Source: Larkinella rosea (lineage in GTDB: Bacteria; Bacteroidota; Bacteroidia; Cytophagales; Spirosomataceae). Taken from it: DNA of 64,000 bases. Made by a program: the position numbers and the translations under genes. The stretch's first letter is position 1. Each line of letters starts with the position of its first letter. Shown in pieces: positions 3,039 to 21,374 of this stretch. The notes beneath the pieces were generated by a model. It made no database searches. It worked only from the letters and a program-made list of their open reading frames with translations, and was not told the origin of the DNA. The stretch is from assembly GCF_003858635.1 (NCBI RefSeq), contig NZ_RQJO01000017.1, forward strand, positions 124,001-188,000, in the 5' to 3' direction.

Positions 3039-4532
3039 TCACTGAATAATGACGGATTCGATTTTCAGGTAATCGGCGATTTTTTGAATCGTTTCAGCGT
3101 GGTGGCCAACGCCCAGCGCGAAATGGTGGGTTGGGCCTTCTTTGATCCAGCGTTTCAGGAAGGTTCGCACGTCGGGTTTGAAAAAACCGCGCGTATTCGT
3201 GTTGCCCGTCGGCGGAATTGGCCCGGCCAGCGACTCGCCTTCGGCAATAATGAATTTCATCTTTCCCTCATACGTCGAACTGATACTCAGCATTGTAATC
3301 GGCCCCTGCTTGATCTTGAACTCGACGCCCGCGCCAAAACCGGGTTTGCCGTGGTATTTTTTTAGGCTTCGCAAAACCGGCTGGCCGTCGGCGATGGCGA
3401 TGTTGTGCGGCCCGTCGTGGCCCACCAGCACAAAATCTTCTTTGAAATCGACCGGGTGAAATTCGGCGAAGCTGCCGCCGATGCCCAGGCGTTCCATGAT
3501 CAGCATGGCGATGCAGGTTTTCAGATCCGATTCGCCACACATCGGAAAACCGGCACCCTGGAGCAGCGAGTTGCCCACAATCAGGTTCGACATCACCACG
3601 CGGGTGTCGCTGCCGTCCGGGCCATCGTAGTAGTACGCCAAACCGTCCAGTTTTTTGGCTTTGACAAACTTCTCCAACGCGACGGTTACCTGAGCGGCAA
3701 TGCGCAGATCCGAGTCGCGGAGTTTTTCGGAAATGGGGTCAGAAACCGGGTCGGGGGTATCGAAAAAAGCCAGAATCCGCTCCTGCACCAGCTGAATTTC
3801 TTCTTCCGTGGCCTGCTGATACTGCGAGACAATTTCGTGCGCTTCACACTGGACAATGTGGGCACCGAAATGGGCGGTCAGCATCGTCGAGTCGGAATGC
3901 ATGTCCAGCATGGCTTCGATGGGGTGACCAATATGACCGATTTTGGAAGTTTTGAGGTCGTGTAAAACCGTGGCAATCCGGCAATATTCTTCAATTTCGG
4001 CGTCGGCTGCGGGATCGTCATACAGCGTTCCAATGATCGTCTGGGGTACTTTTTTACCCATTCGGACGGCGACACCGGCAAATTCGGGCAGGGAGCAGAT
4101 GTCGTCGTTATAAAGTTGTAAGTAGGTTGACGCGCGACTGTAATCCATCGCTTTATCGGGTTGAAGAGCCACCAGGACAATGGGCGTATCAATGCTTTTG
4201 ATGACAATTCCAAACGTGCTCGAGGTCGCGTAAGTGAGCATGTCGCAGAAAATCAGGTCGAGGTTGGCAGCCTGGAGTTTCGGAACCAGTTCGTAGGCCT
4301 TGTTGACGTCGTCGACCAGGCCAAAGTCAATGATCTCCACCGAATTGAGCACTTCAATTTTTTCGATGAAAACCGCCTGCTTTTTCAGCATATCTTCGAG
4401 CAATCCGTCGAACTGGCTCCAGTATTTGAAATAGCCGACGCCAAATACACCAATTCGGGCGCGTGTTTTTTTTCGTTTGATAAAACCGGTCTGATCGACA
4501 GCGGTCGCGTGGTTCAGCGATTCGTTTTCCAT
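3039..4532 (-). CDS. L-arabinose/L-fucose isomerase family protein (AraA-type)
   Basis: A 497-residue cytoplasmic protein of the length of bacterial AraA. The four metal/catalytic positions of AraA appear conserved: E334 in GESDLKT, E357 in GGSFAEFHP, H372 in VGHDGPH, and the histidines at 469-470 in GPTHHFALG. An N-terminal Rossmann-like part (GVFGVGYFKYW) matches the family fold. These enzymes interconvert aldoses and ketoses using Mn2+; the real substrate cannot be read from sequence and could be a sugar other than arabinose. The gene sits between an MFS transporter and a SusC receptor on the same strand, consistent with uptake and first-step catabolism of one sugar. A 15-base motif at 4565-4579 upstream also occurs upstream of the transporter, suggesting common control. 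Confidence 0.8.
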   Translation of the reverse strand: MENESLNHATAVDQTGFIKRKKTRARIGVFGVGYFKYWSQFDGLLEDMLKKQAVFIEKIEVLNSVEIIDFGLVDDVNKAYELVPKLQAANLDLIFCDMLTYATSSTFGIVIKSIDTPIVLVALQPDKAMDYSRASTYLQLYNDDICSLPEFAGVAVRMGKKVPQTIIGTLYDDPAADAEIEEYCRIATVLHDLKTSKIGHIGHPIEAMLDMHSDSTMLTAHFGAHIVQCEAHEIVSQYQQATEEEIQLVQERILAFFDTPDPVSDPISEKLRDSDLRIAAQVTVALEKFVKAKKLDGLAYYYDGPDGSDTRVVMSNLIVGNSLLQGAGFPMCGESDLKTCIAMLIMERLGIGGSFAEFHPVDFKEDFVLVGHDGPHNIAIADGQPVLRSLKKYHGKPGFGAGVEFKIKQGPITMLSISSTYEGKMKFIIAEGESLAGPIPPTGNTNTRGFFKPDVRTFLKRWIKEGPTHHFALGVGHHAETIQKIADYLKIESVIIQ

Positions 4533-4564
4533 ATTTTGAAGGTTTATGTCTTTGTTTCGGTATG

Positions 4565-4579
4565 TTAACGCACTAAGTT
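4565..4579. promoter_or_regulatory. Operator-like motif upstream of isomerase gene
   Basis: TTAACGCACTAAGTT lies 33 bases upstream of the isomerase start codon. The identical 15-mer lies at 6024-6038 upstream of the MFS transporter, where it forms part of a long palindrome. An exact 15-base match in two promoter regions of one putative operon suggests a shared repressor or activator site. At this copy the flanks do not complete the palindrome, so it may be a weaker half-site. No regulator gene is seen in the window. Confidence 0.5.
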
Positions 4580-4672
4580 GATTGGAGCAAAATTTCTGGA
4601 ATACAGCGTTATAAATCAGAAAATCAGGTTATTGCAAACAGAAACCGGACCATTGGCGGATGACCTCATTCG

Positions 4673-5932
4673 TCAATCCGTCTGGACGCTTTTCGGAATG
4701 ATTTCTACCGGTTGCGAATTGCTGAATACGGGTATGATTTTAGGAATCAGCCCGATCAGTAGCAGGAAAGCCAGCGGATACAGCAAGCCTGACGCGATCC
4801 AAAGCGGGCGGTATGAATAGTTCTGAATCACTACACCCATCAGCGGATTGAGCAATAGACCCGAAACCGCTCCCGCTGTTCCCGACAAACCAACGACGGT
4901 GGAAGTGGCTTTCTGTCCGAACATATCGGAAATGGCAGTGATGTAATTGGTGATCCAGAAACCGTGGGCAAACATGAAGACCGCCATGAGTGCAATGGCC
5001 AGATTGACCGACGAAACCCACTCGATCAAAGGGGTTGAAAGCGTGAGCGCAGCTGCAATCCCCATCACGGTTTTTCGGGCTTTGTTCACCGAATAGCCAC
5101 GGGCAATCAACTGGCCGGAAAACCAGCCGCCGAGGATGTTGGCGATGCCCAGCGCCAGAAACGGAATCCAGAAAAGCCCTCCAATTTGCTCAAAGGACAC
5201 ATTTCGTACCGAACTGAGGTATTTTGGAATCCAGAACATCATGAAATAAAAAACCGGATCGAGCAGAAAGCGGATCAGGATGAATACCCAGGTCGGCTGC
5301 TTTTTGAACAATTCCAGAAACGGGATTTTAGTGGTTTTTTCGGAGTCGATGGGAGATTCTGTCACTAGCTGTTCTTTTTTCCAGGGAATACAAACCCACA
5401 CAATGACCCAGGCAATACCGATCAAACCGGGGATCAAAAAACCGCCCCTCCAGCCGTAATGGGTTGATAGCCAGATTGTCAACGGCGGAGCCACAACTGC
5501 CCCAATGGCCGAACCACCGATGGCAATGCCGTTGGCGAGCGCCCGTTCTTTTTTGTCGAACCAGCGGAAAACCGTCCAGGCAGCACCCGGAAAACAACCC
5601 CCTTCGCCCACACCGAGCAAAAACCGGAAGGTTAGCAATTGCGAAAAACTGCTCATTACCGCGTGCAAGCTGTTGGCAATCGACCAGACTCCAACTGAAA
5701 CCGCCAAGCCCATTCGGCCCCCAATCCGGTCGATGAGCCAGCCGCCCAGCGTAAACATGATGGCATAACTGATCAAAAAACTGGTATTGATCATGCCGTA
5801 TTGGACATCCGTAATGTGAAACTCCTCCTGAATCTTCAGAATGGCGATCGACAGGACCTGCCGGTCCAGAAAGCTCAGGCCGGTTGCGATGAAAAGCAGG
5901 AAGACGATCAGCCAGCGGATGTTTTTTTGCAT
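4673..5932 (-). CDS. MFS transporter, anion:cation symporter type (hexuronate/sugar-acid-like)
   Basis: A 419-residue membrane protein with about twelve hydrophobic helices in two halves. The N-terminal segment (FLDRQVLSIAILKIQEEF, then GGWLIDRIGGRMGL) matches the ACS family of the major facilitator superfamily, which includes ExuT-like hexuronate and GarP-like sugar-acid permeases. The loop between helices 2 and 3 carries the DRIGGR form of the MFS motif. It should sit in the inner membrane and take up the compound processed by the isomerase encoded 140 bases downstream. The start codon at 5932 is supported by the immediately hydrophobic N-terminus. A strong palindrome at 6016-6043 lies 84 bases upstream. 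Substrate inferred only from family and context. Confidence 0.85.
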   Translation of the reverse strand: MQKNIRWLIVFLLFIATGLSFLDRQVLSIAILKIQEEFHITDVQYGMINTSFLISYAIMFTLGGWLIDRIGGRMGLAVSVGVWSIANSLHAVMSSFSQLLTFRFLLGVGEGGCFPGAAWTVFRWFDKKERALANGIAIGGSAIGAVVAPPLTIWLSTHYGWRGGFLIPGLIGIAWVIVWVCIPWKKEQLVTESPIDSEKTTKIPFLELFKKQPTWVFILIRFLLDPVFYFMMFWIPKYLSSVRNVSFEQIGGLFWIPFLALGIANILGGWFSGQLIARGYSVNKARKTVMGIAAALTLSTPLIEWVSSVNLAIALMAVFMFAHGFWITNYITAISDMFGQKATSTVVGLSGTAGAVSGLLLNPLMGVVIQNYSYRPLWIASGLLYPLAFLLLIGLIPKIIPVFSNSQPVEIIPKSVQTD

Positions 5933-6015
5933 GGTTGGGAATAGGAATAGCGCGATTGAAAGTGAGACAGAGAGTAAACCCGTCTCGCTTCTCTGGTCTT
6001 AGCTCTTTTGTCTAC

Positions 6016-6046
6016 ACGCTAACTTAACGCACTAAGTTAGCGTTAA
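6016..6046. promoter_or_regulatory. Long palindromic operator upstream of MFS transporter
   Basis: Bases 6016-6026 and 6033-6043 are perfect reverse complements (11-base arms around a six-base centre ACGCAC). A second, overlapping inverted repeat pairs TTAACGC (6024-6030) with GCGTTAA (6040-6046). The centre contains the 15-mer repeated at 4565-4579. Nested dyads next to a sugar-transport promoter are typical of GntR- or LacI-type operators; the regulator is not identified. The distance to the start codon (about 75-110 bases) fits binding at or near a promoter. Confidence 0.6.
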
Positions 6047-6179
6047 CAAAGATAGAAGTGTGTTGAGGAGAAAATCAAGAGGTCCTGGTACTTTTTTTTA
6101 AATAAATTGCAGGAATCCAATCAGTAGGCCAGTTGGGTGAAATGGCAGAAACGAAGAACGGGCAGCGATGGTGAGTAAT

Positions 6180-8465
6180 TTACGGGACAATTTCGGTCGT
6201 TTGCTGGTACCATTTTTCAAACTTAGCCATGAGTTGCTCCAGTTTGATGGGTTTATTGATGATATCATCCATCCCGGCTTCCAGGCAACTTTGTTCCGTT
6301 CCTTCGACGGTATTGGCGGTCAGCGCCACAATAACCGGTTGTTTGATCGGGGATTGGCGAATTAGCCGGGTCGCTTCCAGCCCGTCCATGACCGGCATCT
6401 GCATATCCATCAGGATCATGCTATACGCTTTGTCACGGATCGCTTCCAGTGCTTCCTGTCCGTTACTGACCATATCGGCCTGATAGCCCAACCGCTGGAG
6501 AATGTGCATGATCACCCGCTGGTTCATCACATTGTCTTCCGCCACCAGCAGAACGAAGGGATATTTTTCACAAAAATCGGCCGACAGTTTTTTCTGCAAA
6601 ACCGGTTCCGGAGATTTCGGGATTTGCTGGTGAAGCGCATTCTGAACGTGTTTCATCAGGACGTGCTGTTTGATCGGTTTGTTCAGAACCGAAACAAAAA
6701 GCTGCCGCTGTTCATCTTTTAACTCCTCGCCAATGGAACTGAGCAGAATGAGGGGAATTTTGGGCAAACGGGTGCGGATCTGCCCGGCCAGCATCAGTCC
6801 ATCCATGCCCGGCATTTGCATATCCGTAATCACCAGATCAATTTCCGGCGTTTTCGACAGAATCTCCAGCGCTTCGTCTCCGCCCGTAGCCAAAACCGGT
6901 TGGAGCTTCCAGGTTTCAAACTGTCGCTTCAGAATCGTCAGGTTGGTCGCGTTGTCGTCTACCACCAGGACGCGTTTCCCCTCCAGATCGATCAGGTTGT
7001 ACCGGGTATAGGGAGTGAGCGTTTTTGTTCCGACGCGCGTCTGGATCGTAAAGGAAAACGTAGAGCCAATGCCCGGTTTGCTCAGCACGTCCATTGCTCC
7101 GTTCATCAACTGAACCAGTTTCAGCGAGATCGCCAGGCCCAGACCGGTACCGCCGTATTGGCGGGTGGTGGAGGCATCCACCTGCGAGAAGGACTTAAAG
7201 AGTCGCCCCAATTTATCGGCCGGAATACCAATACCGCTATCCTGGACATCGAACCGGATCGTCAGGGTGCCGTCCGCAGCGACGTGGTCCGGTTTTACAA
7301 ATACACAGACTTCACCCTTTTTGGTAAATTTCAGGGCATTGCCGACCAGGTTGGTTAAAATTTGCCGGAGCCGCAACTGATCGCCCACGATTTGAGCCGG
7401 TACGTTTTCGTCAAGTTCGTAAATGAGGTCAAGGCCGAGCTGAGTGGCCCGGGTTCCGAAAATATCCAGTGTGTCTTCAATGCACTGCCGGAGGTTGAAA
7501 TCCTCGTTTTCCAGCTCCAGGTTTCCCGATTCGATCTTGGAAAAATCTAAAATATCGTTAATCACGTTGAGCAGCGTATCTCCGCAACTGGCAATGGTTT
7601 CGGTGAACATTTGCTGCTCTTCCGTCAACGATGTTTCCTGCAAAAGAGCCACCATACCGATCACGCCGTTCATCGGGGTTCGGATTTCGTGACTCATCGT
7701 GGCCAGGAAGATGCTTTTGGCCTGATTCGCTTTTTCAGCCTCAATACGGGCTTTCTCCAGTTCCAGGTTGGAGGTGCTGAGTTGTTGGTTGATTTGTTTC
7801 AGTACTTCTTCGTTTCGTTTCCGTTCCAGCGAGAGTTGCGCTTCTTTTTGCAACTCCACCATTTCCATTGCCTGATGAAGCTGAATTTCGTTGTATTTCC
7901 GAAGCTGATAGGACCATAAACCGCTAATCAGAAAGATGACGGCTGCCAGCAGGATATGGATGACGAATGTCAATAGATCAAAGTAATCCAGCCGGGTGAA
8001 ATAAATTTCGTTGACACCGCTGTTTTGGAGGTAACCAAAAACCGCATGGTGAACCAGCACAACGACCATCATGGGAATCTGCAATTTCCATTTCTGATAC
8101 GTGATCAACACCGCGCTGCCAATAAAGGCAAAAAAATGCATTTCGAAGAGTCCGTGCATCTGGTAGATATACTGGGCCATAAACACCCCGTAAACCGCAC
8201 TCAGAACATACTGATAAAGGTCGGAAGCAGGCAGCAGGGTTTTGGCGGAGTAATAGGCGACCAACGAAAGCCCGCCAACCCCAAGCGCAATCAACCAGGT
8301 GTCGTAAAACAAAGCCAGGGCGAGTCCGATCAGGAAATAACCGCTCAGAAAATAATTCATTAAGCGGTCGGACCGCACCTGAACGCCCGAGAGAAAGTCG
8401 TGGGTTGGGTTAAGGGATACGGCGGGCGGATACGCCACACGGGGTTGTACCGGAGGTGAAGTCAT
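6180..8465 (-). CDS. Hybrid sensor histidine kinase with two receiver domains
   Basis: A 761-residue protein. Residues about 36-190 form six hydrophobic helices, with a histidine-rich pattern between them ([10 protein letters not shown] near 104-113, VHHAVFGYL near 138-146). A coiled coil at about 190-250 leads to HisKA with phospho-acceptor H259 ([10 protein letters not shown]), then HATPase with N376 (NLVGNALKF), DSGIGIP at 409-415 and GTGLGL at 439-444. Two receiver domains follow, with acceptors D548 ([11 protein letters not shown]) and D687 ([11 protein letters not shown]). There is no Hpt or DNA-binding domain, so output must go to separate partners, none of which is in the window. The last residues end at 6180. 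The start overlaps the stop of the upstream thioredoxin-like gene by four bases, so the two are translationally coupled. Signal unknown. Confidence 0.93.
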
Positions 8466-9061
8466 TTTTTACAGTAGGGCAGGCTACAGCCGTAAGACGT
8501 ATGGGCAAGTTGGTCGAACACACGACCGGATTCGTTCTGCAACAACCCAGCAAGGGCCATTTTTGCGTAGCTGGTTTTCTCATCTGTGCAGTAGCGGCTC
8601 CGGTTGTAATTTCCACGAAAATAGAGACGATGTTGTGCGTCCAGCAAAACCGCCTGGGGAGTGGAATAAACCCCACACGATTTGGCGATGGATGGATCAA
8701 ATAAAACCGGGATGTCCAGCCCTATTTTTTCCTGTATTTCCTGAACCGAGTACATTTTCGCACTCATCACAACGACGACGAAGTTTACTTTTTCCCCGAA
8801 TTGTTTCACCAGGGATCGAAAATGGGGTGTATTGAACCGGGAACAGGGGCAGTTCGGATTGAAAAAATGAAGCAAAACCGGTCGGTTAAATGGTAACGCA
8901 GCCAGTTCGTTTACGGGAATGACGGTTCCGTTAGCTACCGGTTTATAATTTTCAGGAACAGGTGTGGGCAGTTGGTACATCCAATCGTTGTACCAGAATA
9001 ATCCTCCCACGGCGGAAAGTAAAACGAGCAGCCACAGTAATACCAAACCTTTTTTTACCAT
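8462..9061 (-). CDS. Membrane-anchored thioredoxin-fold protein
   Basis: A 199-residue protein with an N-terminal anchor ([20 protein letters not shown]) and a periplasmic thioredoxin-like domain. The active-site region is [10 protein letters not shown], a CPC motif rather than the usual CxxC, and the cis-proline loop appears as [10 protein letters not shown]. Two further cysteine pairs occur (KSCGVYSTP and [10 protein letters not shown] at the C-terminus). It resembles AhpC/TSA-like or DUF6436-type proteins rather than a classical DsbA. Its stop overlaps the start of the hybrid kinase by four bases (8462-8465), so a redox or folding link with that sensor is possible but inferred. Start at 9061 chosen because the anchor follows immediately. 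Confidence 0.75.
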
Positions 9062-9136
9062 GAGTTGAGCGCTCTTTTTGCCGGGAATCGGGTCGATAGA
9101 TGGATGAAATCGGGGAATAATTCAATTTTATTCCTT

Positions 9137-9168
9137 CCGATTTTGATCTTATAAACGATCAAAATCGG
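9137..9168. repeat. Perfect 12-base inverted repeat
   Basis: CCGATTTTGATC (9137-9148) pairs exactly with bases 9157-9168 around an eight-base loop. It lies 76 bases upstream of the thioredoxin-like gene and about 170 bases beyond the end of folB. No T-run follows on either strand, which argues against an intrinsic terminator; an operator or mRNA hairpin is more likely. The rest of 9062-9336 shows nothing recognisable. Confidence 0.5.
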
Positions 9169-9336
9169 GCAATAACAGTGCCATTTTCGTTTCAAAAGTT
9201 ACCGTTTTTCCAGTATTGGTAATTTATAGGTGACAAATGGGGGCAGATACTGGGCTGATCCATCCGAAAAAAGCCGGAAAGCGATCCCAATTTCCAGACG
9301 TTCCAGACGAATTCTATTGGTAAGTTCTGGTGTGGA

Positions 9337-9687
9337 TTAGCCCCGCAACGTAATCTTCGCGCGGTGGCAGACACCCCCGATGGGTGGGTTGAATTTGGAG
9401 ACACTGACCTCAACGGTTTCGACGTTGGGGTAGCGTTTGCGGATTTCGGTGATGATGTTGTGAGAAATGTGTTCGAGCAGGCGGGCGGGGCGCTGCATGG
9501 CTTCGTGGGCGATGCGGTATAATTCGCCGTAGTTGACCGTCGTACTCAACTTGTCGACGCGGGCGGCTTCGGATAGGTCGGCAACCACCGTGATATCGAC
9601 GGAGTACTTGTTGCCGATTTTCTGTTCTTCGTCGTAGAAGCCGTGGTAAGCGAAAAATTCGAGACCTTCAAGCGAAATTGTTCCCAT
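9337..9687 (-). CDS. folB: Dihydroneopterin aldolase
   Basis: A 116-residue protein matching the full length of FolB, which converts 7,8-dihydroneopterin to 6-hydroxymethyl-dihydropterin in folate synthesis. Visible family features are LEGLEFFAYHGFYDEE at the start, KIGNKYSVDITV, the conserved tyrosine in VNYGELY, LLEHISHNI and a C-terminal PPIGGVCHRAKITLRG. The frame remains open upstream of 9687, but that extension is a basic, low-complexity stretch unlike any FolB, so the ATG at 9687 is preferred. The 100 bases between it and the DivIVA-domain gene are short enough for co-transcription, though the functions are unrelated. No other folate gene lies in the window. Confidence 0.9.
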   Translation of the reverse strand: MGTISLEGLEFFAYHGFYDEEQKIGNKYSVDITVVADLSEAARVDKLSTTVNYGELYRIAHEAMQRPARLLEHISHNIITEIRKRYPNVETVEVSVSKFNPPIGGVCHRAKITLRG

Positions 9688-16084: not shown

Positions 16085-16945
<861 letters not shown>

Positions 16946-16961
16946 CAGACGCCAATTCGGA

Positions 16962-17004
16962 GGGTGTAAAGGAGGGCTAAATCGCTTCTTTACGCCCTTT
17001 TTTT
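16962..17004 (+). terminator. Intrinsic terminator after rfbA
   Basis: GGGTGTAAAGGAG (16962-16974) pairs with CTTCTTTACGCCC (16985-16997), allowing G-U pairs, around a 10-base loop. A run of seven T follows. It lies 17 bases after the rfbA stop. Confidence 0.75.
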
Positions 17005-17325: not shown

Positions 17326-17733
17326 ATGCACGAACCGCGTAAACCCTCCGACAAATTTCACGGGGATGTTGGCTCTTTTATCACCGCTGCCGACGCCAAA
17401 AACCGTACCCGCCAGCATCGCGCTTTTGAAGAAGGAAAACTGGGTCTGAAACCAGACGAAGTGACCAAGGCCGAGTTTTTTGGCATCAACCGCATTAGCA
17501 AATTGATGGGGCGTAAAGATTGCGTAGGCATCCGGATTTACTACGGCAAACGCTACGAAGACGCGGACGGCGACCCCACGACGCACGACAAAGGCGAGCT
17601 CAAACCCCGCTTGGTATTAGTAGGTGTCCGCGCCGACGGTTCCGATATTTTTGAAGATAAAGAAGGGTTGAAAGATCTGATGGGCGATGGCGATGCATTG
17701 GCCGATGGAATGCCTTGTCCGCAATCGTGTTAG
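17326..17733 (+). CDS. Small uncharacterised protein with C-terminal CPxxC (module copy 1)
   Basis: A 135-residue soluble protein without signal peptide; function not recognised. It is a paralogue of the product of 18674-19060: both have an N-terminal GxFI...A segment, an EFFG motif, CxGIRIYxxK in the middle, PRxVLVGVxxxGxxI, and a C-terminal LADGxxCPxxC. The three conserved cysteines (one internal, two in the tail) could bind a metal or form a disulfide. It ends 21 bases before a seven-helix membrane protein gene, an arrangement repeated exactly in copy 2, so each small protein is probably partner of the membrane protein that follows. Base composition is normal for the window. Confidence 0.8.
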   Translation: MHEPRKPSDKFHGDVGSFITAADAKNRTRQHRAFEEGKLGLKPDEVTKAEFFGINRISKLMGRKDCVGIRIYYGKRYEDADGDPTTHDKGELKPRLVLVGVRADGSDIFEDKEGLKDLMGDGDALADGMPCPQSC

Positions 17734-17754
17734 TCGTAGCATTCAACGAATGAA

Positions 17755-18426
17755 ATGTTAGAAAGATTCTTTCATTTATATTTAGAACATCCTTTAGAGT
17801 TAACCCATGATTTGGCAACTGTAATACCTATTGTTGTCGGATTATTTTATGCCAACCCAAAACGAAAGGAGATAAGATTCCTGTTAATATATTTCGTTTT
17901 CCTATTTTTCAGGAATCTTATTTCTAATATTTACGCTACCTATAGAATAAATAATATTTTTTTATATAATTTTTTTAATTTTATAGAGATAATTGGCTTC
18001 GGATTAACTTATTATTTTAATATCAATAAGTCTAATTTTAAGTTTTATATTCTTATTGGTAGTATATTAGTAATTATCATAAATGTTTTTTTCTGGGAAA
18101 CCAACGAATTTTCTGCTGGTATCCTTACTTTAACAAGAATCTTCGGTTTATCTATTGCGCTATTTTATTTTGTAGAATTATTGGCCGAGATGAAAGTGAA
18201 AAATATCCTGAAACATTCTTTGTTTTGGGTAAGTAGCGGAATAATCATTCATTCTACCGGTACAATCCTTATTTTCTTATTTTCAAAAATAATCCTATCA
18301 ACGCGAGCTGCACCAGATATTTTCTTTGCTTATTGGAATTTTATATTAATAATGTATATAGTATTTTGCCTGTTTGTCTCCGTGGGTTTTTGGGTTAGTA
18401 AATATGATGAAGATAATTATGCTTGA
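17755..18426 (+). CDS. Seven-helix membrane protein, AT-rich (module copy 1)
   Basis: A 223-residue integral membrane protein with about seven hydrophobic helices and short loops; family not recognised. It matches the product of 19079-19765 in layout and in the motifs N...YNFFNFIE and HSLFWVSSG followed by IHSTGTILIFLF. Codons are strikingly AT-rich: the 60-base lines from 17941 and 18001 contain only 7 and 10 G/C, while the line from 17521 in the preceding gene has about 37. That suggests separate origin or relaxed selection, although the frame is intact. It could be a membrane sensor feeding the kinase/regulator pair downstream (inference). Confidence 0.75.
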   Translation: MLERFFHLYLEHPLELTHDLATVIPIVVGLFYANPKRKEIRFLLIYFVFLFFRNLISNIYATYRINNIFLYNFFNFIEIIGFGLTYYFNINKSNFKFYILIGSILVIIINVFFWETNEFSAGILTLTRIFGLSIALFYFVELLAEMKVKNILKHSLFWVSSGIIIHSTGTILIFLFSKIILSTRAAPDIFFAYWNFILIMYIVFCLFVSVGFWVSKYDEDNYA

Positions 18427-18481
18427 TTTGGTATGTAATTATTTAGTTACTTTCTGAATGCAATATCTATTTAAATCAATT

Positions 18482-18504
18482 GGGATTAATCCCCGATTTA
18501 AATC
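18482..18504. repeat. Two small adjacent palindromes
   Basis: GGGATTAATCCC (18482-18493) and GATTTAAATC (18495-18504) are perfect palindromes in the 247-base gap between the two modules. A looser pair, GAAAACCGG (18506-18514) and CCGGTTTTC (18562-18570), follows. These could be regulatory sites for the second module; nothing else is seen in the gap. Confidence 0.35.
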
Positions 18505-18673
18505 AGAAAACCGGCCTGAATAATCAACAAAACAGGATCAGAAATGCATTGTAAACATAGCCCGGTTTTCCGTTTACTCAAAGGTTTCCGCGTTAATTGC
18601 ATTCCACACCAGGCTTGTGCAACTTTGGAAAACTATTTCAAACATCATTTTTACCGTATAACCTCTTTTTTCC

Positions 18674-19060
18674 ATGAGTTCAATTAATAGCGGTGCGGGA
18701 CGCTTCATTTCGAATGAAGAAGCCAATCAATTCAAAGGAGCCTATGAGAATCGCAAAAAACAGCAACTGATTCCGGAACAGGATACCGTTCGCTCCGAAT
18801 TCTTTGGCAGCACCAATCTGCAGCAGATACTCGATCAGCCGGGCTGCATCGGTATCCGGATTTATCACGCCAAGCGTCGGGAAAAGGTGAATGGGACCGA
18901 ACACCTGGTGCCCCGGGTGGTGCTGGTTGGTGTTGACAAAAACGGGAAAGAAATTCTGCAATTGACTGTTCCGACCGAAACCGGTATGAAAGATATGCCT
19001 GCTGGAAAAGAAGGACAATTGGCCGATGGTCCGATCTGTCCGCCGGAGTGTAACGGGTAA
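18674..19060 (+). CDS. Small uncharacterised protein with C-terminal CPxxC (module copy 2)
   Basis: A 128-residue soluble protein, paralogue of the product of 17326-17733. Conserved points are GRFISNEEAN, SEFFG, CIGIRIYHAKR, PRVVLVGVDKNGKEI and the tail LADGPICPPEC. The paralogues agree in order and spacing but differ widely elsewhere, so the duplication is old or came from separate acquisitions. It ends 18 bases before the copy-2 membrane protein gene. Function unknown; the conserved tail cysteines are the best candidates for a ligand or redox site. Confidence 0.8.
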   Translation: MSSINSGAGRFISNEEANQFKGAYENRKKQQLIPEQDTVRSEFFGSTNLQQILDQPGCIGIRIYHAKRREKVNGTEHLVPRVVLVGVDKNGKEILQLTVPTETGMKDMPAGKEGQLADGPICPPECNG

Positions 19061-19078
19061 CGCAAGGAGGGAAAGCCT

Positions 19079-19765
19079 ATGCTTGATCACCCCTATATAT
19101 CATTAATTCTGAAGTATCCGGATTCATTTTTACCAGATCTGTTCCTGCTTCTGGCAATCGGGGCAGGTCTGGTCAACTATTCTTTTCTGGATAGGCCCAG
19201 TCGGTGGTTATTCAGAATGCTGGTTCTCTCGTTGGTCATTAGCCTTATTCAACTTCATGATGCGGCCTACCGGCAGAATAACACGTATTTACACAATCTG
19301 AATTCACTGGTTGAAATGGGCTGTTTTGCCGCAGCTTATCGGATTGAATTAAAAGCCCGGAGTAATCAGGTAATTGTTTTTACGGGATTGGGGATATATT
19401 TATTGGTATTCCTGAATGATTTCAGCTGGACCCGCATTGCCGGTGTTACGCTCGGTGTGGAACGAATTGTCATGATTGTCTACGCCTTGTTGTATTTTCA
19501 TTACATTCTGGCTCGGATGCAGGTACAAAACCTATTGATTCATTCAATGTTCTGGGTGAGCGCCGGAGCCATTGTCCATGCAGCCGGAACGTTATTTGTC
19601 TTTCTGTTTGTCAAAGTGACACTGGGTGACCTTAGTTCAAACGGCAGTTACGCATTGTACATCACCATCGTACGAACCTTTTCGGCCTTTTTTTACATCA
19701 TTCTCGGCTTCAGCTTCTGCATTCGACGGCGCGAATTTCGGCTGGCTGAGCGGTTTACCGTTTAA
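19079..19765 (+). CDS. Seven-helix membrane protein (module copy 2)
   Basis: A 228-residue integral membrane protein with seven predicted helices, paralogue of the product of 17755-18426. Shared motifs are NNTYLHNLNSLVEMG (copy 1: NNIFLYNFFNFIEII) and HSMFWVSAGAIVHAAGTLF (copy 1: HSLFWVSSG...). Unlike copy 1 its base composition is typical of the window. It ends 111 bases before a histidine kinase that has a single membrane helix and no sensor domain of its own, so the pair may supply the sensing part (inference from context). Known seven-helix sensor families could not be assigned. Confidence 0.78.
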   Translation: MLDHPYISLILKYPDSFLPDLFLLLAIGAGLVNYSFLDRPSRWLFRMLVLSLVISLIQLHDAAYRQNNTYLHNLNSLVEMGCFAAAYRIELKARSNQVIVFTGLGIYLLVFLNDFSWTRIAGVTLGVERIVMIVYALLYFHYILARMQVQNLLIHSMFWVSAGAIVHAAGTLFVFLFVKVTLGDLSSNGSYALYITIVRTFSAFFYIILGFSFCIRRREFRLAERFTV

Positions 19766-19876
19766 TACATCGTTCTTGCGCAAATGACTCCAGAGTTTTA
19801 TATTTCGCAAATTGAAACTTAATCATTCCCCGTGTATGGGAACGCACTTCGCTTCTGGCCCGCTGTGAACGAGGAC

Positions 19877-20686
19877 ATGAAATTATATATTGCCGTTGGA
19901 ACGGCCGTTTTGCTGGTGATGGCTATTTTCATCATTGTATTTGTTGCCTATTACCAGCAAAAACAAATTCGTCAGCAACTGATTCTGAAAGAGTGGCAGG
20001 AGAAATACCGCAAAGGTCTTCTGGCCGCAACGCTTCAGGCGCAGGAACACGAACGTCGGCGGATCGCCCAGGATCTGCACGACGAAATTGGAACGATGCT
20101 GTCGGTTACAAAATTGAGCCTCAATCAGCTGGGTAGAACCGTTGAACACAACGACCCCGGCTCAACGGTTTTGGTTCAGAAAACCCGCTCACTCCTGGAC
20201 GAAACCATCGCCAACGTCCGGCGCATCAGCCGCGATCTGGTTCCTACTACCCTCGAACGGTTCGGCCTTGTTTCGGCGCTGGAAGAACTGGCCGAAAAAG
20301 CCAGCAATGGCGAAGTCCATGTCGAGTTGTCGTGTTCGGATAAAATGCCGACCTTGCTGCCGCAGCTGGATCTGACGCTGTTTCGGATTGCGCAGGAGTT
20401 GATCAACAACGCGATTAAACACGCCAATGCCGAGAATATCATCATCGATTTGCATTGTCAGCCCAACGGCGTCCTGCTGTCGGTGATCGACGACGGACGC
20501 GGTTTTGATCTGGACGAAATTCTGAAAGACAAAAAACGCGGGTTGGGACTGCGGAACATCGAAAGCCGGTTGAACGTCATCGACGGGCATGTAACGTTCG
20601 ATGTCGAAGAAGGCCGTGGCTCCCGGATTCACATCCAGGTGAAAAATTTAAAACCAGAAGTGGAGGTTGAAGTAGAAGCGGTATAA
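19877..20686 (+). CDS. NarL/DesK-type sensor histidine kinase
   Basis: A 269-residue kinase with one membrane helix (residues about 4-25), a short coiled coil, and a HisKA_3 domain with phospho-acceptor H68 in RRIAQDLHDEIG. HATPase_c shows ELINNAIKHA, DDGRGFD and GLGLRNIESR. There is no extracellular or PAS sensor domain, so an accessory protein probably detects the signal. An in-frame ATG at 19832 would add 15 residues, but MKLYIAVGTAVLL is the usual type of N-terminus for this class. The response regulator gene follows 22 bases later; the two make a complete two-component system. Confidence 0.9.
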   Translation: MKLYIAVGTAVLLVMAIFIIVFVAYYQQKQIRQQLILKEWQEKYRKGLLAATLQAQEHERRRIAQDLHDEIGTMLSVTKLSLNQLGRTVEHNDPGSTVLVQKTRSLLDETIANVRRISRDLVPTTLERFGLVSALEELAEKASNGEVHVELSCSDKMPTLLPQLDLTLFRIAQELINNAIKHANAENIIIDLHCQPNGVLLSVIDDGRGFDLDEILKDKKRGLGLRNIESRLNVIDGHVTFDVEEGRGSRIHIQVKNLKPEVEVEVEAV

Positions 20687-20708
20687 AATCAGCCATCTAA
20701 CCCTAACC

Positions 20709-21374
20709 ATGAAAAAGATCAAGATTGCTTTAGCCGACGATCATAATCTGTTCCGGAAGGGAATGGCTTCGGTGCTGAGTCAGGTGCCGGATTTTGAATT
20801 GGTGCTCGAAGCGAGCAACGGCCAGGAACTGATCGACAAACTGACCCGCCGAATGCCCGACGTGGTGTTACTGGACCTGGAAATGCCGGTCATGGACGGT
20901 ATTGCGACCACTGAATACATCCGCGAAAACCACCCCGACGTCAAAATCATCATGCTAACCATGCACGACGAAGACCGGTTTGTATTGCACTTACTCGAAA
21001 AGGGCGTCAGCGGGTACGTTCTGAAAGATGCCGACCTGGATGAAGTGGAAAAAGCCGTTCATCGGGTCATGGACGATGGCGTTTACCTGAACGATTTCGT
21101 CTCGAAGGTAATGCACCGGAAAATGGTCAACAAAACCACGGTTATCAAGCAATCCTCGACCACCACACTTTATAATAGTAAGGTATTGCTGTCGGAACGC
21201 GAGAAAGAAGTGCTTAAGCTGATCTGTGAAGGGTTATCGACCGCCGAAATCAGCGAGAAAATCTTCCTCAGCCCGCGCACCGTCGAAGGCCACCGTCTGC
21301 GGATTCTGGAAAAAACCGGTACCAAAAATACGGCAGGAATGGTGGCTTACGCATTCAAAAATAATCTGGTATAA
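20709..21374 (+). CDS. NarL/LuxR-family response regulator
   Basis: A 221-residue regulator. The receiver domain (residues 1-120) has the acidic pair DD at 10-11, acceptor D56 in LLDLEMPVMDG, and the conserved lysine in YVLKDAD. A linker leads to a LuxR-type helix-turn-helix (LSEREKEVLKLICEGLSTAE, then ISEKIFLSPRTVEGHRLRI). It is expected to bind DNA when phosphorylated by the kinase encoded just upstream. Targets are unknown; the duplicated membrane module before it is the nearest candidate. A 30-base inverted repeat follows its stop and separates it from sucA. Confidence 0.93.
   Translation: MKKIKIALADDHNLFRKGMASVLSQVPDFELVLEASNGQELIDKLTRRMPDVVLLDLEMPVMDGIATTEYIRENHPDVKIIMLTMHDEDRFVLHLLEKGVSGYVLKDADLDEVEKAVHRVMDDGVYLNDFVSKVMHRKMVNKTTVIKQSSTTTLYNSKVLLSEREKEVLKLICEGLSTAEISEKIFLSPRTVEGHRLRILEKTGTKNTAGMVAYAFKNNLV

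Follow-up and report, generated by a model that had tools for sequence, protein, structure and literature searches.

What does a tandemly repeated pair of genes, encoding a small protein that ends in a CPxxC motif and a membrane protein with seven predicted transmembrane helices (7TM), do beside a histidine kinase that has no recognizable sensor domain? The question is raised by positions 17,326–21,374 of the window, by which we mean the whole 64,000 nucleotide stretch of Larkinella rosea DNA analyzed here (contig NZ_RQJO01000017.1, positions 124,001 to 188,000). The module comprises six genes on the + strand, small-1 (17326..17733), 7TM-1 (17755..18426), small-2 (18674..19060), 7TM-2 (19079..19765), the kinase gene (19832..20686) and a NarL/LuxR-type response regulator gene (20709..21374). 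An initial annotation had placed these six open reading frames (ORFs) here, with the same gene order twice and a spacing of 18–21 bases, and had ventured that the membrane protein could be a receptor and the small protein a ligand, modifier or regulator of it; the arrangement was confirmed, and the suggested functions gain support from the covariation of the small protein's tail with the 7TM class that is described below. We conclude that the module is probably a ligand-receptor two-component system whose matched tail and receptor are replaced together as specificity types in the window's family, the Spirosomataceae. A pherotype-like pair of this kind, feeding a two-component system, is what we infer from our strongest evidence, the polymorphism of the receptor gene and the tail covariation.

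The 223 amino acid 7TM-1 protein is the outlier of the locus in both identity and base composition. It is 35–46% identical to its counterparts in seven relatives, though the kinases are 96–99% identical. For example, L. punicea and L. sp. C7 have 100% identical kinases and regulators, 96% identical small-1, 95% identical small-2 and 94% identical 7TM-2 proteins, and 39% identical 7TM-1 proteins; between the window and L. terrae the parallel values are 99% (kinase), 100% (regulator), 95% (small-1), 88% (small-2), 80% (7TM-2) and 45% (7TM-1). Other Larkinella pairs have a common 7TM-1 class, with 69–95% identity. The G+C fraction at third codon positions (GC3) of 7TM-1 is 0.26 in the window, compared to 0.51–0.64 for the five other module genes and three flanking genes, and it is 0.26–0.29 in eight of nine genomes in which the other module genes range from 0.45 to 0.71; the exception is L. 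soli, whose 7TM-1 gene (0.63) lies in a GC-rich locus. Along the DNA, identity falls where small-1 ends and rises again close to the end of 7TM-1. In the Spirosomataceae as a whole, receptors are less than 50% identical in 40 of 116 pairs whose kinases are more than 85% identical, and at the 16 family loci that have a neighbour with a small-protein body more than 85% but a 7TM protein less than 50% identical, 7TM GC3 lies 0.198 below that of the small gene, against 0.018 at the rest. On these comparisons we propose that 7TM-1 is an exchanged receptor gene.

The tail of the small protein follows the receptor. Small-1, a leaderless protein of 135 amino acids described from its ORF, paralogue comparison and a family alignment, ends in ...ADGMPCPQSC (tail GMPCPQSC), and its conserved C-terminal tail codons (LADGMPCPQSC plus stop, 17698..17733, + strand) encode the proposed ligand, four variable residues of which track the 7TM class. 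Among the Larkinella genomes the small-1 tails sort by 7TM-1 class and not by species group: L. terrae and L. knui have APCPQFC; L. punicea and genome G100, whose 7TM-1 proteins are 69% but whose small-1 proteins are only 57% identical, have HPCPQHC; C7, L. humicola and L. arboricola have VPCPQHC; and the window (MPCPQSC) and L. soli (HLCPDRC) are each alone in their class. Conversely, G100 and L. arboricola have small-1 proteins 94% and kinases 99% identical, but 7TM-1 proteins only 35% identical and unlike tails. Across the Spirosomataceae we assembled 126 pairs, of which six were dropped for want of a terminal CPxxC, leaving 120 rows and 111 after deduplication. The partial correlation of the four variable tail positions with the 7TM protein, given the body of the small protein, is 0.66 for the 585 pairs with body identity above 0.6 and 0.40 for all 6105; when tails were shuffled within body clusters, the observed contrast of 0.433 compares with a maximum of 0.200 in 5000 shuffles. 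Body and receptor disagree in 38 triples; the tail goes with the receptor in 36 of them, there is a tie in two, and in none does it go with the body (these triples come from 12 focal loci, with a receptor majority in 11, and are not independent of each other). Of all six-column windows along the small protein, the five that lie over the variable tail residues give partial correlations of 0.58–0.66 and all others −0.37 to 0.42, with the nine just before the tail at 0.05–0.20. Finally, within a receptor class (7TM 0.6–0.85 identical, body above 0.5) the variable tail residues agree in 367 of 516 comparisons, 158 of these with different codons, and they agree in 1059 of 3552 comparisons where the 7TM proteins are less than 0.5 identical; agreement within a class despite other codons argues for selection on the match and not for linkage alone. 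Signal and receptor thus appear, from these alignments, to be polymorphic as matched types in the Spirosomataceae, as they are in the ComQXPA system.

How regularly do these genes travel together? The initial annotation had called for this check, and had named as damaging to its idea pairs scattered without two-component genes and small and membrane genes that are not linked. In 60 fresh loci (a non-random sample, chosen by 7TM score and not by context, in roughly score order with previously fetched places and a few others skipped, using a profile built from earlier loci) there are 62 7TM ORFs; 57 are followed by a kinase, two by another 7TM and three by none of the four module genes, and upstream of them lie 50 small-family ORFs, nine other ORFs, two 7TM ORFs and in one case nothing, so that 59 of 62 have a partner ORF. 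Scattering of the feared kind was not seen in these loci, although exceptions exist (below). For the 142 7TM ORFs examined first, the gene upstream belongs to the small family in 110 cases, is a 7TM in 13, something else in 13 (four of which, in L168, L183, L187 and L200, are plainly not partner genes) and absent in six; on the downstream side the closest gene with a label is a kinase in 103, a 7TM in 13, a small gene in eight, a regulator in two and none in 16. The small CPxxC protein, the 7TM protein, the one-helix HisKA_3 kinase and the LuxR-type regulator are a recurring module. Sensor-less kinases are the rule in it: a single hydrophobic segment was counted in 55 of the 57 kinases from the fresh loci, or in 43 when the threshold was loosened, leaving no room for a fused multi-helix sensor, and these kinases are mostly 250–300 amino acids long. 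Of 200 genomes of the window's family, the small protein was detected in 132 and the 7TM protein was detected in 148, and in a phylum sample of 345 the counts are 34 and 69, respectively; with a broader 7TM profile, members of that family were found in 113 of 296 genomes sampled from the class, with up to nine copies per genome. A further scan turned up relatives in Larkinella, Spirosoma, Fibrisoma, Fibrella, Fibrivirga, Hymenobacter, Flavobacterium silvisoli and metagenome-assembled genomes, five of which are labelled Gemmatimonadetes, Zixibacteria or Edwardsbacteria. Long ORFs had suggested a 7TM-kinase fusion in Gemmatimonadetes, but this was ruled out, as the 7TM has an ORF of its own there and a single hydrophobic segment lies in the kinase ORF.

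The exceptions take several forms. The profile found no kinase near the 7TM gene in L072, L074, L089, L102, L172, L185, L232, L234, L244 and L246–L248 (some of which are from the same genomes); L072, L074, L232, L234, L244 and L246–L248, from Fibrella, Fibrivirga and Spirosoma, have small and/or 7TM genes with no kinase or regulator recognized close by. At these last loci the receptor may signal to a distant kinase or be decaying. No convincing hidden short ORF stands in place of the partner upstream of the orphan 7TM genes that were examined. Locus L066 (G016, of the window's genus) carries at 5595–6008 a third small-family copy with no recognized 7TM, the next downstream ORF (293 amino acids) being on the opposite strand, and in L078 (G015) a small-family copy with a lipoprotein-like N-terminus (5376–5837) is divergent from an opposite-strand 7TM-kinase-regulator set. 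Exported Hymenobacter versions lacking a recognized 7TM are found in L259, L263 and L272; L259 (Hymenobacter elongatus) has two lipoprotein-like proteins (3979–4728 and 5489–6220), each seemingly with two copies of the small domain, and no 7TM recognized nearby. In L099 (G109, 5027–9634) one small gene is followed by four tandem 7TM genes, a kinase and a regulator, which is a receptor amplification behind a single tail.

What the partners share best is their end. A CP-x(1–3)-C motif lies in the last 45 residues of 50 of the 59 partners in the fresh loci (42 of 50 small-family members and eight of nine others), compared to three of 157 other ORFs of at least 100 amino acids; in the first loci the corresponding counts are 80 of 110 small-family and one of 13 other partners against four of 1024 control ORFs. 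Even partners that the small-protein profile does not recognize have such a tail (for example FYDFSRPCPPTC in L304 and YFEFATPCPPLCN in L309), so the tail looks like the functional part, borne on a variable body. The cysteine pair is not essential everywhere, since the tails in L097 and L100 keep the prolines and have lost both cysteines (..VGTIPPGNR and ..SRVPPPPSDL). Simple rules class 42 of the 59 fresh partners as leaderless and give the other 17 a lipoprotein-like or hydrophobic N-terminus, and the two kinds can coexist in one genome (G743: L337 and L341). In the predicted structure of the small protein, a small alpha/beta unit leads into a tail that is modelled with less certainty (mean predicted local distance difference test score, pLDDT, 81.5); a fold search gave nothing at a Foldseek expectation value (E) of 0.001 or below, and the best second-look Z was 2.9. 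The initial annotation had recognized neither family, and for neither the small nor the 7TM protein did searches of Pfam, NCBIfam, PADLOC or PDB sequences give a convincing match; single-member matches in the range E 0.0007–0.01, among them those of the small family to HisK_sensor (E 0.0013) and BSAP5b (E 0.0007), were taken as chance.

The seven helices predicted initially are borne out by the 7TM-2 structure model, which has seven long helices (mean pLDDT 93.3, predicted template modelling score 0.89). The positive-charge rule favours an orientation with the N-terminus outside and the C-terminus inside in 185 of 198 7TM proteins, and the N-terminus is predicted outside alike for those with leaderless (122 of 131) and with exported (32 of 34) partners. 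The best conserved residues, F158, W159 and G163, lie at the predicted inner end of transmembrane helix 6 (TM6). The 50 best second-look PDB matches are all 7TM proteins, nearly all of them receptors or rhodopsins, led by mGlu2-mGlu3 (Z 13.2, root mean square deviation 4.7, 198 aligned) with rhodopsins up to Z 12.8, values that may reflect merely a common helical arrangement; Foldseek gave E 0.027 at best for 7TM-2, and a 46-row 7TM profile had no match among PDB sequences at E 1 or below. The module's 7TM proteins therefore may be said to resemble G-protein-coupled receptors (GPCRs) and rhodopsins in their modelled form, and we claim no kinship. When 106 members were compared to Pfam at E 0.01 or below, the only receptor family matched was 7TMR-DISM, once, at E 0.0088; this and other single-member matches, among them SDF (E 0.0009) and HlyIII (E 0.0017), were taken as chance.

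We propose that the signal of the small protein would be its last 8–12 residues, the CPxxC tail, and that the 7TM protein, N-terminus outside, would be the receptor and would bind the tail on its outer side, ligand and receptor meeting outside the cell. The receptor would control the one-helix kinase within the membrane, and the kinase would phosphorylate the LuxR-type regulator; tail and receptor would be matched and, in the window's family, jointly replaced as specificity types, like the ComX/ComP pherotypes. The sequences offer some candidate contact positions. Once overall receptor and body similarity are allowed for, the 7TM columns most associated with the tail lie on the outer side in 19, 19 and 16 of the top 30 (three pair sets) against about 13.4 expected, and the same test with body similarity gave ten of 30. 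The two residues inside CPxxC, taken alone, have a depth correlation of −0.185, with circular shifts as low in 18 of 210. Of 49 cases with histidine in CPxHC, 38 have aspartate at 7TM position 16, which lies at the outer end of TM1, compared to one of 62 without the histidine, and on the body tree this association has six independent contrasts (about 5.8 in the same and 0 in the opposite direction, p 0.03). An outer-side binding site for the tail is a lead, not proof.

Several observations weigh against the ligand-receptor reading. The outer-side clustering is modest, circular shifts being as high in 11 of 210, 0 of 211 and 66 of 210, and for the depth correlation shifts are as low in 25 of 210, 6 of 211 and 24 of 210; for the pair that precedes the first cysteine, taken alone, there is no such correlation (0.09). 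The His-Asp16 association has just three independent contrasts on the 7TM tree (p 0.25), and position 196, equally associated at first sight, is unsupported by contrasts (about 1.8 same and 0.6 opposite of six). By our simple rule the majority of the small proteins lack a signal peptide, which fits poorly with a receptor on the outer side. The tail codons are about 20 nucleotides from the 7TM gene, and part of the covariation may be linkage. Four groups outside the Spirosomataceae (56 of 64 loci usable, eight dropped as the kinase, 7TM or small ORF was not found) gave weaker partial correlations of 0.39, 0.09, 0.12 and 0.16, and a replaced receptor (less than 50% identical) was seen there in none of 30 pairs with kinases more than 85% identical (six and 24 from two groups, the other two having no such pairs); apparent receptor exchange is seen in one family only. 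Over 150 phylum pairs the correlation of small-protein and 7TM distances is low (r 0.196; permutation maximum 0.153).

Three other explanations have to be set against this. The leaderless partners might instead be cytoplasmic adaptors that link the 7TM protein to the kinase. Their tail would then bind that protein from the inside, in the way of an arrestin or a G-protein tail, and what the 7TM protein senses outside would be something else. The preponderance of leaderless partners favours this, as does the position of the best conserved 7TM residues at the inner end of TM6, but partners with a lipoprotein-like or hydrophobic N-terminus occupy the same operon slot, the predicted 7TM orientation is alike for both kinds, and the tail-associated positions lean, modestly, outward; we consider an adaptor unlikely. 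The tail covariation would also suit the specificity of an enzyme for its substrate, so that the 7TM protein could process or export the small protein in the manner of AgrB, the matured tail acting on another receptor, perhaps the kinase itself, and a dedicated exporter would be useful where most small proteins have no signal peptide. Lipoprotein partners, however, need no such exporter, the kinase has one helix and no recognized sensor domain, and it is 96–100% identical among Larkinella species with different tails (87–89% for L. soli), hardly what is expected of a specificity partner; such a processing role is improbable.

It might also be that phages or bacteriocins exploiting the 7TM protein have driven its diversification, recombination merely dragging the adjacent tail codons along. 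The drop and recovery of DNA identity around 7TM-1 and the lowered GC3 of the replaced receptors are as this would predict. On the other hand, tail residues agree within a receptor class by way of differing codons, and the columns immediately before the tail hardly track the receptor; we think it very doubtful that linkage accounts for the pattern.

In layout and logic, the known system that comes nearest to the module is ComQXPA, a quorum-sensing system of Bacillus. Mature ComX corresponds to the C-terminal end of its precursor. The Bacillus system is described (PMC4008528) as four adjacent genes with a pre-peptide signal, a PF07730 (HisKA_3) kinase, ComA with a GerE/LuxR-type DNA-binding domain, and polymorphic pherotypes. 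The module resembles it in its signal gene, HisKA_3 kinase, GerE/LuxR-type regulator and apparently matched polymorphic types, and may work alike by analogy. It is not a member, because no ComQ isoprenyl transferase is adjacent to the window's module among its six flanking genes (the only flanks scanned) and neither the small nor the 7TM protein matches such an enzyme, a separate 7TM receptor is proposed, and the ligand would be the tail of a carrier protein. Unlike ComP, the window's kinase and nearly all of those in the fresh loci have no multi-helix receptor domain fused to them, the tail is borne by a carrier some 100 residues long or by a lipoprotein, and the protein families of the two systems are unrelated by the searches made. 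The Agr (AgrBDCA) system of Firmicutes likewise has a small signal protein with a cysteine, a membrane protein, a kinase and a regulator in one operon, and has specificity groups; the module shares this operon make-up, a cysteine in its putative signal and apparent specificity groups, but its kinase is one-helix and its regulator is LuxR-type and not LytTR, and no AgrB, AgrD or AgrC model is among the Pfam and NCBIfam matches (AgrB was checked for the 106 7TM members at E 0.01 or below). GPCRs and microbial rhodopsins have seven helices with the N-terminus outside, a form to which the model and the charge rule point for the module's 7TM as well, but no sequence similarity to them was found in the PDB profile search or Pfam. 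7TMR-DISM and other bacterial 7TM sensor modules feed histidine kinases; the module's 7TM differs in being a separate gene, and 7TMR-DISM_7TM matches just one of its 106 members. A further paper (PMC8895600), as far as its excerpted text goes, assigns modified oligopeptide autoinducers to Gram-positive bacteria; Bacteroidetes appear there with parts, or with kinase-regulator pairs, of pathways already known. Among the open-licence titles listed, in several cases the best 8–15 of up to 104, none describes the module.

Two families without a convincing Pfam or NCBIfam match, one of them in over a third of the sampled genomes of its class, would, if the ligand-receptor reading is true, give the Bacteroidota peptide-type signalling of their own, in which the 7TM receptor stands alone. 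One could then read signal, receptor and specificity groups from sequence, many sensor-less NarL-type kinases would gain a sensor, and cell-cell recognition in this phylum would become directly testable. It is conceivable, though we hold this only tentatively, that the module is a widespread polymorphic recognition system of Bacteroidota, with traces in the metagenome-assembled genomes labelled Gemmatimonadetes, Zixibacteria and Edwardsbacteria, in which a carrier presents a CPxxC peptide to a receptor of GPCR-like topology encoded by the adjacent gene. Species would exchange tail-receptor cassettes as labels of kin or pherotype, and the kinase and regulator would remain constant.

The remaining features of the locus are as follows. 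Small-2 (128 amino acids, tail GPICPPECNG, ending ...ADGPICPPECNG) and 7TM-2 (228 amino acids, predicted N-terminus out and C-terminus in from its structure model and the charge rule) are a second pair, in which 7TM-2 is less variable than its paralogue; the gap between small and 7TM genes is 21 nucleotides in the first pair and 18 in the second. The duplication noted initially is borne out by paralogue matches between small-1 and small-2 (34% identity, E 6e-20) and between 7TM-1 and 7TM-2 (33%, E 5e-25), and by these sequence comparisons both pairs are true paralogues. Genome searches found two copies of each family and no further ones. The second copies in genus g26 (L085) group with the Larkinella second copies, and the tandem is present there too, so by this comparison it is not recent; a tandem of two pairs is also found in L164, elsewhere in the phylum. 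The kinase gene starts with GTG (an in-frame ATG is at 19877). Its product has HisKA_3 (E 9.6e-13) and HATPase_c (E 1.6e-13) as its sole domains above the curated cut-offs and a single hydrophobic segment close to its N-terminus, and the regulator has Response_reg and GerE, both above their cut-offs, so that all four domains of a NarL-type two-component system are present. The description of the kinase as one-helix and lacking a sensor domain, and of the regulator as LuxR-type, therefore held; instead of a "sensor-less two-component system", one should rather speak of a system with the separate 7TM protein as its likely sensor. PADLOC also matched the regulator (best E 2.5e-06), through what we take to be its receiver and DNA-binding parts. 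The six genes that flank the module are ordinary: they encode a transglutaminase-like protein, a sugar epimerase/dehydratase and a nucleotidyl transferase (the latter two upstream), and 2-oxoglutarate dehydrogenase (downstream). Between the upstream gene (16085–16945) and small-1, an inverted repeat followed by a run of T was seen by eye at 16960–17000; it is not in the computed hairpin list, which was limited to loops of at most 8 bases, and is a possible terminator.

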